From Haloarchaeobius iranensis (GTDB lineage Archaea > Halobacteriota > Halobacteria > Halobacteriales > Natrialbaceae), in NCBI RefSeq assembly GCF_900103505.1, contig NZ_FNIA01000004.1, forward strand, positions 186,001 through 250,000: a stretch of 64,000 nt of DNA, given 5' to 3'. Shown here piece by piece: positions 50,582 to 59,660 of the stretch; within the stretch, counting starts at the first letter, position 1; each line of letters opens with the position of its first letter. A model generated the notes under the pieces. That model was given only the letters and a program-made list of their open reading frames with translations, ran no database searches and was not told the origin of the DNA. Position numbers and translations under genes: made by a program.

Positions 50582-51567
50582 GCGGTGAGACCGACGACCT
50601 CTTCGCCGTGGTCGAGCGCGAGCTCACCATCGTCGCGCGGACGCCGGCCTACATCGCGACCGCGGTCGGCTTCGCCGCGGTCGTCTGGTGGCTCGCCTAC
50701 GCCAGCAGCCTGACCGGCTACGTCCCGCTCGTCGCTGACCTGCTCACGCCCGTCGAGGTGCTCGTGCCGCTGCTCGCCGTGGCGTTCGGCTACCGGGCCA
50801 TCCAGGCCGACGCGGCCTCGAAGGAGCTCGACGTGCTGCGGACGTACCCGCTCCGCCCCCGGACCTACGTCGTCGGCGTGTTCGTCGGGCGGGCGACGGC
50901 GGTGCTCTCGCTCGTGTTCGTCACGTTGCTCGTCGCCGGGCTGTTCGTGCCGCTGTTCGGCCCGCCCGCGAACCCGGTCATCGCGACCCACGGCGGCGAC
51001 GGCCCCTTCGGAACCTACCTCCGGTTCGTCCTGCTCGCGACGTGCTACGCCGCCGTCGTGCTGGCCGCCGTCGTCGCCGTCTCGACGGTCGCTGCGCGGG
51101 GCCGGACCGTCATCGCGGCCGCCGTCGGCGTGTTCGTCCTCCTCACCGTGGGCCTCGACCTCGGACTGGTCGCCGCGCTCTCCTCGGGCGTGGTCGACCC
51201 CGACGCGCTCCGGTACCTGCTCGCGCTCAGCCCGAACAGCGCGTTCCGCGGGCTGACACTCGCGCTCTCCATCCGGACCGTCGAGGCCGCGACGCTCCCG
51301 GTCTCGGCCGTGCTCGCGAACGTCGTCGGGCTGGCGCTCTGGCTGGTTGGCTCGCTCGTGCTGGCGGCGCTGTCCGTCTGGTCGGACCCGCCGACCGAGC
51401 GCTGGCAGGTCGTCGAGACGCTGTCGGCCGGACGGGGGACAGATGCGTCCACGGACGCCGCCGCCGACCAGCGCGAGCCGGCGGCTGCGTCGGTCGAACA
51501 GTCAGTGGATGGCAGCGACGAGCGGTCGGGCGGAGCCGGTGCCCCCGACGGGTCGCCCGAGGACTAG
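50578..51567 (+). CDS. nosY: NosY ABC transporter permease
   Basis: This 329-residue membrane protein has six predicted helices and the ABC-2-type permease pattern, with AAVVWWLAYASSLTGY in the first helix and a hydrophilic loop (IQADAASKELDVLRTYPLRP). It partners NosF. The C-terminal 55 residues are a hydrophilic acidic tail. It ends the nos operon, and its stop codon overlaps the stop of the convergent ferritin-like gene by 3 nt. Confidence 0.9.
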   Translation: MSGETDDLFAVVERELTIVARTPAYIATAVGFAAVVWWLAYASSLTGYVPLVADLLTPVEVLVPLLAVAFGYRAIQADAASKELDVLRTYPLRPRTYVVGVFVGRATAVLSLVFVTLLVAGLFVPLFGPPANPVIATHGGDGPFGTYLRFVLLATCYAAVVLAAVVAVSTVAARGRTVIAAAVGVFVLLTVGLDLGLVAALSSGVVDPDALRYLLALSPNSAFRGLTLALSIRTVEAATLPVSAVLANVVGLALWLVGSLVLAALSVWSDPPTERWQVVETLSAGRGTDASTDAAADQREPAAASVEQSVDGSDERSGGAGAPDGSPED

Positions 51568-52016
51568 TCCTTGCGGTACTCCTTCCGGTAGCCGCGGAAC
51601 TCCGTTCGGTGGGCCTCCTCGTCGGCGAGGAGGGTCACCGCGAGGTCCTCGGTGACCGGGTCGTCGGCCGCCTCGGCCGCGTGGATGAGCGAGCGGTAGG
51701 TCTCGATGGCGTCCTCCTCGGCCTCGATGACGCCGTCGATGACCGCGAGCACGTCCGTCGTGTCCGCGGGCGGCTGGAGGCTCTCCTGGCTCGCCTCGAA
51801 CGCCATCGACCCCGGCGGGGCGTCGTCGAGCTGCTTCAGCCGCTCGCCGAGCTGGCGCGCGTGGGTGAGCTCCTCCTGGATGTCCTGGTCGAGGCTCTCC
51901 TTGATCTCCTCGGCGCGGACGCCGTCGAGCACGATGGAGTTGGACATGTAGTTCATCACGGTCTCGATCTCGTCGCCGTACGCCTGCTTCAGGAGCTGGA
52001 TTACCTGGTCCGACAT
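51564..52016 (-). CDS. Ferritin-like four-helix protein
   Basis: This 150-residue protein is helical with the ferritin-like di-metal pattern: DEIETVMNYMSNSIVLDGV in helix 1, DQDIQEELTHARQLGERL with the ExxH motif in helix 2, VIEAEEDAIETYRSL in helix 3 and LLADEEAHRTEF with a second ExxH in helix 4. Such proteins store iron, act in oxidative-stress defence, or catalyse di-iron chemistry. The exact class (rubrerythrin-like, DPS-like or other) cannot be fixed. The ATG at 52016 gives MSDQVIQLLKQAYGDE. Confidence 0.82.
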   Translation of the reverse strand: MSDQVIQLLKQAYGDEIETVMNYMSNSIVLDGVRAEEIKESLDQDIQEELTHARQLGERLKQLDDAPPGSMAFEASQESLQPPADTTDVLAVIDGVIEAEEDAIETYRSLIHAAEAADDPVTEDLAVTLLADEEAHRTEFRGYRKEYRKD

Positions 52017-52220
52017 GTGTACACTGACGGCGACCAGGCGTTTAACGCTGGGGTAGCCGGCCACCTGCGCCGGCGCTCGCCTCGGGCTGCCGCCCCGGCC
52101 GGAGCTGCAAACAATATAAGGAATGCATATCCGACAGTAGGCGACGCCCGCCCCGGATTTTCGCGACTGCCACGGTCGATGACCCGGTATCCCGCCCGAC
52201 CAGGGACCTGTCACAGCACC

Positions 52221-52257: not shown

Positions 52258-53488
<1,231 letters not shown>

Positions 53489-53524
53489 TGCAGTGGGGCG
53501 GCAAGGACTGCACGACCGCCAACG

Positions 53525-53532
53525 TTTATATA
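53525..53532 (+). promoter_or_regulatory. TATA box of the ilv leader transcript
   Basis: The sequence tttatata is a strong TATA box centred about 29 nt before the ATG at 53558. The same spacing is seen for leaderless genes throughout the window. No comparable TATA box is seen before ilvB itself, so this is the likely operon promoter. Confidence 0.65.
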
Positions 53533-53557
53533 CCGGGCTCGCCCTACGTCTCCAGTA

Positions 53558-53644
53558 ATGAGACGTCGACCGACTGTCCGGGGCCTGCCCCTCGACAGCG
53601 GTCGCGCCGTCGTACGTATTCTCGGTATTGTAGGGGCCGTCTAG
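53558..53644 (+). CDS. Putative branched-chain amino acid leader peptide
   Basis: This 28-codon ORF starts MRRRPTVRGLPLDSG and ends with AVVRILGIVGAV, in which seven of the last eleven residues are Val, Ile or Leu. It is preceded by a TATA box at leaderless spacing and lies 184 nt before ilvB. Its stop codon falls at the end of the loop of a perfect hairpin. In bacteria, leader peptides rich in the pathway's amino acids control ilv and leu operons by ribosome stalling. The composition and position fit that role; no such archaeal system is known to me. Confidence 0.6.
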   Translation: MRRRPTVRGLPLDSGRAVVRILGIVGAV

Positions 53645-53654
53645 CCCCTACAAT
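53627..53654 (+). promoter_or_regulatory. Attenuator-like hairpin at the end of the leader ORF
   Basis: The arms attgtaggggc (53627-53637) and gcccctacaat (53644-53654) make a perfect 11-bp stem with a 6-nt loop. The last Ile, Val, Gly and Ala codons of the leader ORF are in the 5' arm. An upstream copy of gcccct (53587-53592) could pair instead with aggggc (53632-53637), giving mutually exclusive structures. No T tract follows, so it is not a standard terminator; the control step is inferred. Confidence 0.55.
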
Positions 53655-53828
53655 CACCCCTCCACCGACCGTTTCTGCACCGACCTCAGACCCACAGCCG
53701 AGCGTCCGTACGACACCGATGCACACCGCCGACACACCCACACGAACCACAGCCACCCGTCGCCCGCCAGCCGCGGGTGACCACCGGTATCGCCCCACGA
53801 CCAACACACCGTTCGACGGCCCGAGTCC
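53655..53828 (+). other. C-rich untranslated leader between the hairpin and ilvB
   Basis: This part of the ilv leader is C-rich and G-poor, likely unstructured, up to a weaker inverted repeat: cacccg (53754-53759) with cgggtg (53774-53779). No Shine-Dalgarno-like sequence lies just before ilvB. A longer frame through here (53488-53832) is Thr/Pro-rich and does not look coding. Confidence 0.45.
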
Positions 53829-55595
53829 ATGAGCGAACGAGCGAGCACCGCACCCACGGACGGGGCGTCAGGTGAGGCGACACCGACCGAGGACGAGGAG
53901 CCCAAGCGCCCACGCACCGGCGCGACCTCGGTCGTCGAGGCGCTGGAGAACGCCGGCGTCGAGTACTGCTTCGGCGTGCAAGGCGGTGCGATCATGCCCG
54001 TCTACGACGCGCTCTACGACTCCCAGGCGGTGCGTCACGTGACGATGGCCCACGAACAGGGCGCAGCCCACGCGGCCGACGCCTACGGCATCGTCTCGGG
54101 CGAGCCGGGCGTCTGCATGGCCACGTCCGGCCCCGGCGCGACGAACCTCGTCACCGGCATCGCCGACGCCTCGATGGACTCCGACCCGGTCGTCGCACTG
54201 ACCGGGCAGGTCCCGACCGAGTTCGTCGGCAACGACGCCTTCCAGGAGACGGACACGACCGGCGTCACGGCACCCATCACGAAGACGAACTACTTCGCCA
54301 GCGGTGCCGACACCGTCGGCGACGACGTGAGCGAGGCGTTCGGCCTCGCCGCCGCGGGCCGTCCCGGCCCGACGCTCGTCGACCTGCCGAAGGACGTCAC
54401 GCAGGACGAGACCGACCACGAACCCGGGCCGCCGACCACGCCCGACACCTACCAGGTGACCGAGCGCGCGGACCCGTCGGCCGTCCGCGAGGCCGCCGAC
54501 ACCATCGAGGCCGCGAACAGGCCGTTGCTGCTCGTCGGTGGCGGCGTCATCAAGGGCGACGCCAGCGAGGAGGTCCGGCAGTTCGCGAAGACCTACGACG
54601 TGCCGGTGACGACGACGATGCCGGCTGTCGGCGCGTTCCCCGAGGACCACGAGCTGGCGCTCGAGATGGCGGGCATGCACGGCACCGGCTACGCCAACAT
54701 GGCCATCACCCACACCGACTGCCTCGTCGCGGTGGGCTGCCGCTTCGACGACCGCCTGACCGGCGGCATCGAGACGTTCGCGCCCGACGCCGAGGTCGTC
54801 CACGTCGACATCGACCCGGCCGAGATCAGCAAGAACGTCAAGGCGGACTACCCGCTCGTCGGCGACGCCGCGACGGTCGTCACGCAGCTGGACGAGGCGA
54901 TGCGTGCCGCGCCCGAGACGAAGAAGTGGCGCGCCACCTGCCAGCAGTGGAAGTCGGAGTACCCGATGGACTACTCGACGCCCGACGACGAGCCGCTGAA
55001 GCCGCAGTTCGTCGTCGAGGCGTTCGACGAGGCGACGGAGGACGACGCCATCGTCACGACCGGCGTCGGCCAGCACCAGATGTGGGCGGTCCAGTACTGG
55101 CAGTACACCGAGCCACGCACCTGGGTCTCCAGCCACGGGCTGGGGACGATGGGCTACGGCCTGCCCGCCGCCATCGGCGCGAAGGTCGCCGCCCCCGACA
55201 CGCAGGTCGTCTCCTTCGAGGGCGACGGCTCGTTCCTGATGACGATGCAGGAGCTGTCGGTCGCGGTCCGCGAGAACCTCGACATCACCGTCGTCGTGCT
55301 GAACAACGAGCACATCGGGATGGTCCGCCAGTGGCAGGACGCGTTCTACGACCGCCGGCGGATGGCCTCCGAGTACCACTGGTGCCCGGACTTCGCCACC
55401 CTCGCGGAGGGGTTCGGCGCGAAGGGCATCACCGTCGCGGAGTACGACGAGGTCGCCGACGCAATCACCGAGGCGCTCGAGTACGACGGTCCCGCCGTGC
55501 TGGACTGCTACATCGACCCCGAGGAGAACGTCTATCCGATGGTCCCGAGCGGCGGCGACAACGGCCAGTTCGCGCTGGAGGAGGGTCACCTGTGA
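53829..55595 (+). CDS. ilvB: Acetolactate synthase large subunit
   Basis: This 588-residue ThDP enzyme makes 2-acetolactate or 2-aceto-2-hydroxybutyrate, the first common step of valine and isoleucine synthesis. The N-terminal catalytic segment is [19 protein letters not shown] with the activating Glu region [17 protein letters not shown]. The central FAD-binding domain follows, and the ThDP motif is [29 protein letters not shown]. About 35 acidic residues precede the fold. It is the first structural gene after the leader and overlaps ilvN by 4 nt. Confidence 0.96.
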
Positions 55596-56212
55596 GCTCC
55601 GGACTGCCCGGGCCCGCTCCCGACGAGCGGGCGACGCCCGAGGGCCGACGGAACGCACAGGGCATCCGCATCGACCCAGCGGTCGAAGCGGAGCCGGCGA
55701 CACGCCGTGCCGTCATCTCGGTGCTCGTCGAGCACGAGCCCGGCGTCCTCTCGAAGGTCTCCGGGCTGTTCAGCCGGCGGCAGTTCAACATCGAGAGCCT
55801 GACCGTCGGCCCGACCGAGGACGACTCCCGCGCCCGCATCACGGTCGTGACCGAGGAGTCCGACCCCGGCATCGACCAGATCGAGAAGCAGCTCCGGAAG
55901 CAGATCCCGGTCATCTCCGTCAAGGAGCTGCCAGGCAACGCCATCAACCGCGAGCTGGCGCTCGTGAAGGTCGAGGCCGAGAACCCCGACGAGGTCGCCG
56001 CGGTCGCGGAGATGTACGACGCGAACACCGTCGACGCGTGCCCGGAGACGGTCACCGTCGAGATCACCGGGAGCCGCCAGAAGATCGCCGCGGCCGTCGA
56101 CACGTTCGAGCGCTTCGGCGTCCGCGAGGTCACCCGGACCGGCACCGCCGCGCTCGCCCGCGGCACCGAATCGACTACCGACGACACCACTCCGCAATCC
56201 ACCAACCAATGA
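55592..56212 (+). CDS. ilvN: Acetolactate synthase regulatory subunit
   Basis: This 206-residue subunit starts at GTG inside the ilvB stop codon. It has an ACT domain ([33 protein letters not shown]), which in the family binds valine for feedback inhibition, and a C-terminal ALS-type domain ([26 protein letters not shown]). The first 40 residues and last 20 are haloarchaeal extensions rich in charged residues. It overlaps ilvC by 4 nt. Confidence 0.94.
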
Positions 56213-57267
56213 CGACAGACGACTCCACGACGACGACAGTGTACACCGACGACGACGCCGACGCGAGCTACATCGACGGCAAGACCGTCGCCGTGCTCGG
56301 CTACGGCAGCCAGGGCCACGCCCACGCACAGAACCTCGCCGACAGCGGGGTCGACGTGGTCGTCGGCCTGCGCGAGGACTCCAGTTCCCGCGCGGCCGCC
56401 GAGGCCGACGGCCTGCCGGTCGAGACCCCACGCGACGCGGCCGAGACCGCCGATATCGTGTCGGTGCTCGTCCCCGACACCGTCCAGCCGGCGGTGTACG
56501 AGGAGATAGCGCCCGCGCTGGAGCCGGGTGACACCCTCCAGTTCGCCCACGGCTTCAACGTCCACTACAACCAGATCCGCCCCGCCGAGGGCGTGGACGT
56601 GACGATGATCGCGCCGAAGTCCCCGGGTCACATCGTCCGGCGCAACTACGAGCGCGGCGAGGGCACGCCCGGCCTGCTCGCGGTGTACCGGAACGCGACT
56701 GGTGAGGCGACCCAGGAGGCACTCGCGTACGCCCATGCCATCGGCTGCACCCGCGCGGGCGTCGTCGAGACGACGTTCCGCGAGGAGACCGAGACCGACC
56801 TGTTCGGCGAGCAGGCCGTCCTCTGTGGCGGCGTGACCTCGCTCATCAAGCAGGGCTACGAGACGCTCGTCGACGCGGGCTACAGCCCCGAGATGGCGTA
56901 CTTCGAGTGCATGAACGAGATGAAGCTCATCGTCGACCTCATGTACGAGGGCGGGCTCGGCGAGATGTGGGATTCGGTCTCCGACACCGCCGAGTACGGT
57001 GGTCTGACCCGCGGCGACGAGATCGTCGACGAGCACGCCCGCGAGAACATGGAGGAGGTGCTCGAGGCCGTGCAGGACGGCACCTTCGCCCGCGAGTGGA
57101 TCACCGAGAACCAGGCCGGCCGGCCGAGCTACGACCAGCTCCGGCAGGCCGAGACGGCCCACGACATCGAGGCCGTCGGCGAGGAGCTGCGCGGGCTCTT
57201 CGCGTGGGCCGACGACGAACCGACCGAACAAGAGGAGGACGCGACCCCGCCACAGGCGGACGACTGA
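56209..57267 (+). CDS. ilvC: Ketol-acid reductoisomerase
   Basis: This 352-residue enzyme converts acetolactate to dihydroxyvalerate (and the isoleucine analogue) with NAD(P)H and Mg2+. [30 protein letters not shown] is the nucleotide-binding domain. The metal and catalytic segments are [13 protein letters not shown] and [19 protein letters not shown]. Length fits class I KARI plus a short acidic tail. The start overlaps the ilvN stop as ATGA. Which nicotinamide cofactor is used is not certain from sequence. Confidence 0.95.
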
Positions 57268-57269
57268 CA

Positions 57270-57623
57270 ATGACCGAACGCACCCGCAAGCGAGAGACCA
57301 GCACCCAGAACCGAGCGATGAGCGACGTGAGCCACACCAACCCATACACCGGCGAGAGCATGGGGAAGGTGTTCGACCACGGAGTCACCATCGTCGCCGA
57401 CGGCGGCCGCGACCCGACGCGTGAGGACGAGCGGCGGGCCGAACCGTTCGACGCCGACCCGGACGAGGACGGCGCGTCCGAGTCGCGCGACGACACCGAC
57501 GGAGACGAGTCCGACGACGACCCGGACGTCATGGCCGACGTACGCCATCGGACCACGGAAGACGCCGCCGCCAACCGCGTGTTCGAGCGCGGGGGCGAGC
57601 ATAGCGAACGGGACGACGACTGA
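57270..57623 (+). CDS. Acidic small protein between ilvC and leuC
   Basis: This 117-residue protein has a conserved-looking N-terminal stretch ([19 protein letters not shown] from an internal Met, and [11 protein letters not shown]) followed by a very acidic, probably disordered half ([25 protein letters not shown]) and a short [12 protein letters not shown] end. It starts 2 nt after ilvC and overlaps leuC by 1 nt, so it is part of the operon. From memory, a similar protein sits between ilvC and leuC in other haloarchaea. Function unknown. Confidence 0.7.
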
Positions 57624-59053
57624 TGTCGAAGGGCACGCTCTACGACAAGGTCTGGGACCGCCACACGGTCACGGAGCTGCCGACCGGACAGACGCAGCTG
57701 TTCGTCGGCCTGCACCTCATCCACGAGGTGACGAGCCCGCAGGCGTTCGGGATGCTCGAGGAGCGCGACATGGCGGTCGCGTACCCCGAGCTCACGCACG
57801 CCACCGTCGACCACATCGTCCCCACGGCCGACCAGTCGCGTCCCTACGCCGACGATGCGGCCGAGCGGATGATGGCGGAACTGGAGGAGAACGTCCACGA
57901 TGCGGGCATCGAGTTCTCCGACCCGACCTCGGGCAACCAGGGCATCGTCCACGTCATCGGGCCGGAGCAGGGGCTCACCCAGCCCGGCAAGACCATCGTC
58001 TGTGGCGACAGCCACACCTCGACCCACGGCGCGTTCGGCGCGCTCGCGTTCGGTATCGGCACGAGCCAGATCCGCGACGTGCTCGCGACCGGGACCATCG
58101 CGATGGAGAAGAAGGACGTGCGCAAGATCGAGGTAACGGGAGAACTCCCCGACGGCGTCGGTGCGAAGGACGTCATCCTCGAGATCATCCGGCGGCTCGG
58201 CACCGACGGCGGCGTCGGCTACGTCTACGAGTACGCCGGCGAGGCCATCGAGAACCTCGACATGGAGGGTCGCATGTCCATCTGCAACATGAGCATCGAG
58301 GGCGGTGCTCGCGCGGGCTACGTCAACCCCGACGAGACCACCTTCGAGTGGCTGCGGGACACGGAGTACTTCCAGAACAACCCCGAGACGTTCGACGAGC
58401 TGCTGCCGTACTGGGAGTCCGTCGCCAGCGACGACGACGCCGAGTACGACGACGTGGTCACCATCGACGGCAGCGAGCTGGAGCCGGTGGTCACCTGGGG
58501 CACCACGCCCGGGCAGGGCGTCGGCGTCACCGAACCCATCCCGGCTCCCGAGGACCTGCCCGCCGACAAGGCGGACACCGCCCGTCGCGCACAGGAGCAC
58601 ATGCGCGTCGAGCCCGGCGAGACGATGGACGGCTACCCCATCGACGTGGCGTTCCTCGGCTCCTGTACGAACGCCCGACTGCCCGACCTGCGCCGCGCGG
58701 CACGGGTCGTCGAGGGCCGCGAGGTCCACCCGGATGTCCGCGCGATGGTCGTCCCGGGCAGCCAGCGCGTCGCGCGGGCCGCCGAGGCGGAGGGCCTGCG
58801 CGAGGTCTTCGAGGCCGCCGGCTTCGACTGGCGCAACGCCGGCTGCTCGATGTGCCTCGGCATGAACGAGGACCAGCTGGAGGGCGACGAGGCCTGTGCC
58901 TCCTCCTCTAACCGGAACTTCGTCGGCCGCCAGGGGAGCAAGGACGGCCGCACCGTCCTGATGAACCCCCGGATGGTCGCCGCCGCGGCCGTCGAGGGCG
59001 AAGTGACCGACGTTCGCGAGGTCGAGAACACGGAGGTGGTCGTGGATGACTGA
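57623..59053 (+). CDS. leuC: 3-isopropylmalate dehydratase large subunit
   Basis: This 476-residue aconitase-family subunit isomerises 2-isopropylmalate to 3-isopropylmalate. The [4Fe-4S] cluster cysteines are in [13 protein letters not shown] and [51 protein letters not shown] and MTDGPAETV-proximal sequence at the end fit LeuC. It starts at ATG overlapping the previous stop codon and overlaps leuD by 8 nt. The subunit alone lacks the small swivel domain, which LeuD provides. Confidence 0.95.
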
Positions 59054-59660
59054 TGGCCCTGCGGAGACCGTCGAACACGTCTCCGGCTCGGGTATCCCGG
59101 TGCGGGGCAACGACATCGACACCGACCAGATCATCCCGGCGCGGTTCATGAAGGTCGTCACGTTCGACGGCCTCGGCCAGTTCTCCTTTTTCGACCAGCG
59201 GTTCGACGACGACGACAACGAGAAGGACCACCCGATGAACGAGGACCGCTTCCGCGACGCCTCGGTGATGGTCGTCAACGCGAACTTCGGCTGTGGCTCG
59301 TCCCGCGAGCACGCCCCGCAGGCGCTCGTGCGCTGGGGCATCGACGCCATCGTCGGCGAGTCGTTCGCGGAGATCTTCGCGGGCAACTGCCTCGCGCTCG
59401 GCGTGCCGACGGTGACGGCCGACGCCGAGACCGTCGAAACCATCCAGGACTGGGTGGACGACAACCCGGACGGCGACGTCGACGTCGACGTCGCGGCCGA
59501 GACGGTCACCTACGGCGACACGACCGTCGATGTCACCGTCGACGACGCCCAGCGCAAGGCGCTCGTCGAGGGCGTCTGGGACACCACGGCGCTGATGAAG
59601 GCGAACGCCGAGGCGGTCGCGGAGACCGCCGCGAGCCTGCCGTACGTCGACACCGCCTGA
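59046..59660 (+). CDS. leuD: 3-isopropylmalate dehydratase small subunit
   Basis: This 204-residue swivel-domain subunit has [38 protein letters not shown] and [17 protein letters not shown], all hallmarks of LeuD. Together with LeuC it forms the isomerase of leucine synthesis. It ends the operon, 4 nt before a convergent gene. The next pathway enzyme, LeuB (3-isopropylmalate dehydrogenase), is not in this window. Confidence 0.95.

Follow-up and report, generated by a model that had tools for sequence, protein, structure and literature searches.

In bacteria, stalled ribosomes are a textbook means of attenuation. Archaea couple transcription to translation, but their RNA polymerase is eukaryote-like and they are not known to have Rho. 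Can a ribosome reading a leader peptide control a biosynthetic operon in such a cell? The question is raised by a stretch of 64,000 nucleotides from Haloarchaeobius iranensis (the window, to which all positions refer unless stated otherwise), in which the initial annotation had read a bacterial-style leader-peptide layout in front of an ilv operon. This reading is partly supported, by the locus itself and, independently, by leaders upstream of valS (Val-only) and pheS (Phe). As judged from sequence comparison, the leader in the window is quite probably an amino-acid-responsive attenuator, in which ribosome stalling at Ile/Val codons would block a repressive hairpin. The locus, all of it on the forward strand, is arranged as follows.

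52433 to 53488, forward: leuA-type gene (isopropylmalate/citramalate synthase family), upstream of the promoter.
53520 to 53532, forward: promoter of a leaderless transcript, CAACG (BRE-like) plus TTTATATA, read directly.
53558 to 53644, forward: ORF1, leader peptide MRRRPTVRGLPLDSGRAVVRILGIVGAV followed by its stop, 28 codons, conserved in 60 of 63 ilvB loci.
53562 to 53611, forward: hairpin A within ORF1, from folding, codon shuffles and compensatory changes.
53618 to 53632, forward: control codons ATT CTC GGT ATT GTA (Ile Leu Gly Ile Val).
53627 to 53654, forward: hairpin B, ATTGTAGGGGC-cgtcta-GCCCCTACAAT, with the leader stop in its loop, from sequence and folding.
53655 to 53718, forward: spacer, C-rich, G-poor and unstructured, with GTTTC at 53671-53675 and the conserved GCAYCG at 53677-53682.
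53719 to 53832, forward: ORF2, 37 codons, TGA overlapping the ilvB ATG by 4 nt (ATGA), probable coupling ORF.
53829 to 55595, forward: ilvB, acetolactate synthase large subunit (TIGR00118, 722 bits, over cut-off).
55592 to 56212, forward: ilvN, acetolactate synthase small subunit (TIGR00119, over cut-off), GTGA overlap with ilvB.
56209 to 57267, forward: ilvC, ketol-acid reductoisomerase (TIGR00465, over cut-off), ATGA overlap with ilvN.
57623 to 59053, forward: leuC (TIGR00170, over cut-off).
59046 to 59660, forward: leuD (TIGR00171, over cut-off).

The operon genes were identified with NCBIfam models, and ilvB, ilvN, ilvC, leuC and leuD all lie downstream of the leader in the same direction. 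The truncated leuA-type ORF has 2-isopropylmalate synthase models as its top matches, below cut-off, and is adjoined by a ferritin-like (DPS-related) gene on the reverse strand (51564-52214). The ilvB/ilvN (55592-55595) and ilvN/ilvC (56209-56212) junctions are 4-nt overlaps, and coupling may extend through the operon.

ORF1 starts with an ATG at 53558 and ends with AVVRILGIVGAV (peptide ILGIVGAV) and a TAG at 53642-53644. Its TATA box, TTTATATA at 53525-53532, had been described as lying at leaderless spacing; nearly all ilvB loci have a TTAT-type box that begins at about -32 relative to the leader ATG. A TATA-ATG distance of about 32 nt is the spacing expected of leaderless transcripts, which make up 72% of protein-coding transcripts in Haloferax (PMC4983044). 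From this spacing, the ORF1 transcript would start at the ATG or a few bases from it.

The 28-codon ORF before ilvB has proved far more widespread than a single genome could tell. We read 63 ilvB loci, taken from 61 relatives plus seven additional haloarchaeal loci. The leader is present at 60 of them, as a leaderless ORF that ends in I/V-V-G-A/V and has an invariant GTAGGGG together with a CCCC arm; carriers include Halovivax, Natronolimnohabitans innermongolicus, Halorubrum salsamenti, Haladaptatus halobius, Halolamina rubra and Natrialba asiatica. At the three exceptions (L053-L055), a longer leuA-type ORF reaches ilvB and leaves no promoter gap. The window's genome holds the element a single time, with one match to its exact pattern. 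When Halobacteriales genomes were searched with a covariance model of the hairpin region, 274 of 293 gave a match (78 of 87 genera), as did 248 of the 255 that are nearly complete. Outside the order but within the phylum, about 164 genomes gave a single weak match (G453), which was taken as chance. A short ORF thus sits between promoter and operon and appears to be kept open by selection. GC-rich DNA commonly holds short ORFs and inverted repeats, so that a chance ORF and hairpin in a GC-rich gap might be invoked, but the leader is conserved over 13 families, including an AT-richer genome (L056), and the same genomes show no consistent leader of this kind at ileS, trpS, trpD or leuS. Conservation refutes a chance origin, to which we attach a vanishingly small probability.

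The ORF is interlocked with hairpin B, a perfect 11-bp inverted repeat of ATTGTAGGGGC (53627-53637) and GCCCCTACAAT (53644-53654) around a 6-nt loop that contains the TA of the leader stop. This hairpin, recognized already in the initial annotation, folds at -22.7 kcal/mol (z = -5.66), a stability equalled by 0 of 200 shuffles, and its mean formation probability when free is 0.93. Across loci the GGGG/CCCC arms are kept and the loop measures 5-8 nt; the leader stop falls inside the loop in most loci and just past the hairpin in seven, where the hairpin is still kept. In an alignment of relatives, a check that had been proposed with the expectation of compensatory changes, the ORF, its Ile/Val end and both stem arms are conserved, but hairpin B shows no compensatory changes across the ilvB loci, because its 5' arm never varies; its pairing therefore rests on the constancy of both arms, the 3' arm degenerating at its outer bases. 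Codons and pairing do not fully account for the base-for-base invariance of GTAGGGG.

These features also bear on whether the repeat is read as DNA. The strong inverted repeat GTAGGGGC...GCCCCTAC, close to the start site, could be an operator bound by a repressor just 3' of the promoter, with the ORF incidental. Yet the spacing of the arms varies by several nucleotides, one arm is invariant while the other degenerates, the repeat always keeps frame with an ORF that has the matching codons, and the pheS leaders and a second valS design (see below) do likewise with other sequences. A DNA operator is accordingly very improbable.

How hairpin B might be switched is suggested by its position: its 5' arm directly follows the control codon, a geometry in which pairing would depend on the ribosome. 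The initial annotation had instead placed the switch in an upstream gcccct (53587-53592), a duplicate of the hairpin's 3' arm through which the aggggc arm could pair with either copy. This proposal was rejected: the duplicate is confined to the closest relatives (L001-L004), where it is part of the local hairpin A. With the ribosome footprint masked, the CCCC arm has no conserved alternative partner in the ilvB loci (mean pairing probability 0.17, scattered), and no mutually exclusive antiterminator pairing emerges there. The element therefore resembles a switch with one hairpin rather than the multi-segment design of bacteria.

Hairpin A, within ORF1, is supported by two lines of evidence. 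Folding of the 58 leaders is more stable than that of their codon-shuffled versions (mean z -1.3), the independence of these shared-ancestry sequences being overstated in such statistics. In addition, in a gap-free subset of 10 sequences, 5 of 10 pairs have compensatory changes on both sides, and 0 of 500 shuffles attain the observed score; the signal is weaker in a second subset (19 of 500). Gap-free subsets were used in place of a MAFFT alignment, which misaligned hairpin A.

GTA is present in 59 of 59 ilvB leaders, whereas it accounts for 0.5% of Val codons in the neighbouring ilvB genes, and it is preceded by ATT or ATC in 57 of 59; ATT itself occurs in 45 of 59 leaders, while its share among the Ile codons of the ilvB genes is 3.6%. 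In the ilvB leader peptides, 29% of the final six residues are Ile, against 0.2% elsewhere. The end of the peptide had been described as rich in Val, Ile and Leu, of which Ile and Val stand as consistent control residues, whereas Leu does not recur consistently across the ilvB leaders.

Second matches of the covariance model within the same genomes lie mostly upstream of valS, where the leaders end in VFVGA, VVVGA or VRVGA. The 25 valS leaders have Val codons near their end, including GTA, and Ile precedes GTA in none of them, against 57 of 59 ilvB leaders (Fisher p = 2e-19, a value that overstates independence since the sequences share ancestry). A second, shorter valS design (MEHAPVAVVRT type), with GTA GTA CGT inside a hairpin, is found in the window's own genome as MEHAPVAVVRT with GTA GTA (L313:555-590) and also in L314-L318, L320, L323 and L326. 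In many genomes (L319, L322, L329, L332 and others) a TTCGACGGATGTATTGT block follows the valS leader hairpin. Upstream of pheS, leaderless leaders of 24-29 codons ending in GFGFFFA or similar occur in 19 of 24 genomes and in each of the six named species (L229-L252, L363-L368), and Phe makes up 38% of their last nine residues against 0.6% elsewhere. The N-terminus of the pheS leaders, MAxES, is also conserved. A pairing of the pheS leader start with a block after its stop looked plausible by eye and was rejected, its mean z being only -0.23.

Codons for the relevant end product thus stand near the ORF end in each case: Ile/Val for ilvB, Val for valS and Phe for pheS. That codon identity tracks the gene, as expected for sensing of charged tRNA, is in our judgement the decisive observation, and such a match in three separate places is hard to explain except by charged-tRNA sensing during translation. 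A different use of the leader peptide would be nascent-peptide arrest, in which ...IVGA would stall the ribosome in response to a small molecule and not for lack of charged tRNA, as happens with TnaC or ErmCL. A terminal IVGA/VGA is indeed common to the ilvB leaders and many valS leaders. However, only about four terminal residues of the ilvB leaders are constant, those fixed by the hairpin arm, while upstream residues vary freely; no arrest peptide of the TnaC/ErmCL kind is conserved beyond the control codons, and the second-design valS leaders end in VVRT/VVRA without VGA. Peptide arrest is thus unlikely, though less so than a DNA operator.

Under charged-tRNA sensing, the ribosome would translate ORF1 directly from the leaderless transcript. 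When charged tRNA-Ile or tRNA-Val is short, it would wait at ATT/GTA, its footprint covering the 5' arm of hairpin B, so that the hairpin is blocked and ilvB-ilvN-ilvC-leuCD are expressed. When Ile and Val are plentiful, the ribosome would reach the stop in the loop and leave, hairpin B would form, and expression would fall. We infer stalling and this direction of control, as well as termination as the output.

The most likely output step would be that hairpin B helps transcription to terminate or pause within the C-rich, T-containing spacer ahead of ORF2. The 60 nt past hairpin B in the ilvB loci are 41% C, 19% G and unstructured, and a T run followed by C is enriched there (T4 or longer in 34% against 2.5% in shuffles, independence again being overstated by shared ancestry). 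In the window, no U run adjoins the hairpin and, as had been remarked, there is no T tract beyond GTTTC (53671-53675), whereas many relatives do have one, with T-run-plus-C signals often lying further downstream of the hairpin. In a Haloferax reporter, T stretches ending at C terminated 95% of transcripts and a hairpin motif 59% in vivo (PMC7237163). The archaeal termination factor FttA prefers U-rich RNA (PMC11616081) and alone does not fit well, as the spacer is C-rich and FttA should act when ribosomes fall behind; under a simple FttA-coupling model, stalling would decrease expression rather than increase it. A GCAYCG element about 47 nt after GTA (53677-53682 in the window) is conserved in nearly all loci.

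The spacer leads into ORF2. In 53 of 59 loci, its stop and the ilvB start codon overlap, nearly always by the 4 nt of an ATGA, the stop/start overlap of a termination-reinitiation pair. Its ATG typically lies 80-92 nt after GTA, and 57 of 65 spacer ATGs are in the ORF2 frame. Of 14 ATGA-overlapping cases tested, 13 were strictly coupled, with nine pairs from Haloferax (PMC6728339); both partners there are ordinary genes, unlike ORF2, with which they share the 4-nt overlap. The ORF2-ilvB overlap suggests translational coupling, and ORF2 would tie ilvB translation to ribosomes coming from the leader side. ORF2, hairpin A and the aminoacyl-tRNA synthetase leaders are additions to what the initial annotation described.

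The same sensor could also have a translational output, a possibility that deserves weight even though we think it clearly the less probable one: a post-termination small subunit would pass from ORF1 to ORF2 to ilvB by termination-reinitiation, with hairpin B and stalling setting the number of ribosomes that reach ORF2. The frequency of the ORF2 overlap at ilvB and its presence as ATGA in 13 valS loci, the near-constant distance of the ORF2 ATG from GTA in most loci and the strict ATGA coupling in Haloferax (PMC6728339) all agree with this. Yet stalling would then lower ilvB expression in starvation, which is the wrong direction unless ORF2 also starts independently, and the pheS leaders have no ORF2 counterpart. 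Termination is favoured because it yields the expected direction of control.

Bacterial ribosome-mediated attenuators (ilvB, ilvGMEDA, leu and pheST in Escherichia coli and relatives; ilvBNC of Corynebacterium, PMC11857589) likewise encode a short leader peptide whose final part is read from cognate, often rare codons, have RNA hairpins that overlap the leader, and share ilvB and pheS as target genes. The haloarchaeal leader differs in its leaderless start, the absence of an adjacent U tract and of conserved antiterminator pairing, the second, coupling ORF over the target start, and the archaeal transcription and translation machinery. T-box leaders control aminoacyl-tRNA synthetase and amino-acid genes in Firmicutes and are specific to tRNA charging. 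As there, one principle would serve synthetases and biosynthetic operons alike, but the haloarchaeal leader has no tRNA-binding RNA fold and would read charging through a translated ORF; Rfam, T-box included, gave no match up to E = 1 in 53400-54000. In Haloferax volcanii, a 26-codon uORF with a mapped transcript start precedes pheS, comparable to the pheS leaders described here; no function or amino-acid match was assigned to it, and ilvB and valS were not listed (PMC4983044, Table 2).

Taken across the order, these leaders probably form a haloarchaeal network that would put the branched-chain operon and two aminoacyl-tRNA synthetases under the control of leaderless leader peptides. Their rare cognate codons would sense the charged forms of tRNA-Ile, tRNA-Val and tRNA-Phe, and a single hairpin would act without antiterminator, a second ORF coupling the outcome at ilvB and many valS genes. 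Like bacteria, archaea thus appear to use stalled ribosomes to sense amino acids. No description of archaeal leader-peptide attenuation was found in the literature searched, from which subscription papers were out of reach, so that an earlier report may exist. If true, the network would be the first case of codon-specific attenuation on record for Archaea, the same logic having evolved or been kept with different parts; as a natural switch, it opens archaeal transcription-translation coupling and termination to direct tests in Haloferax volcanii, and it suggests a function for uORFs such as the mapped one before pheS.

Between ilvC and leuC, the window encodes a small acidic protein (57264-57620) that has no Pfam or NCBIfam match and whose C-terminal ANRVFERG motif recurs elsewhere. 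At two reverse-strand loci (L188 and L189, in genomes G066 and G213), an extra leader ending in LIVGV, with the same hairpin, precedes a small ORF ending in GANRVFERG, the motif that it has in common with this intervening protein.
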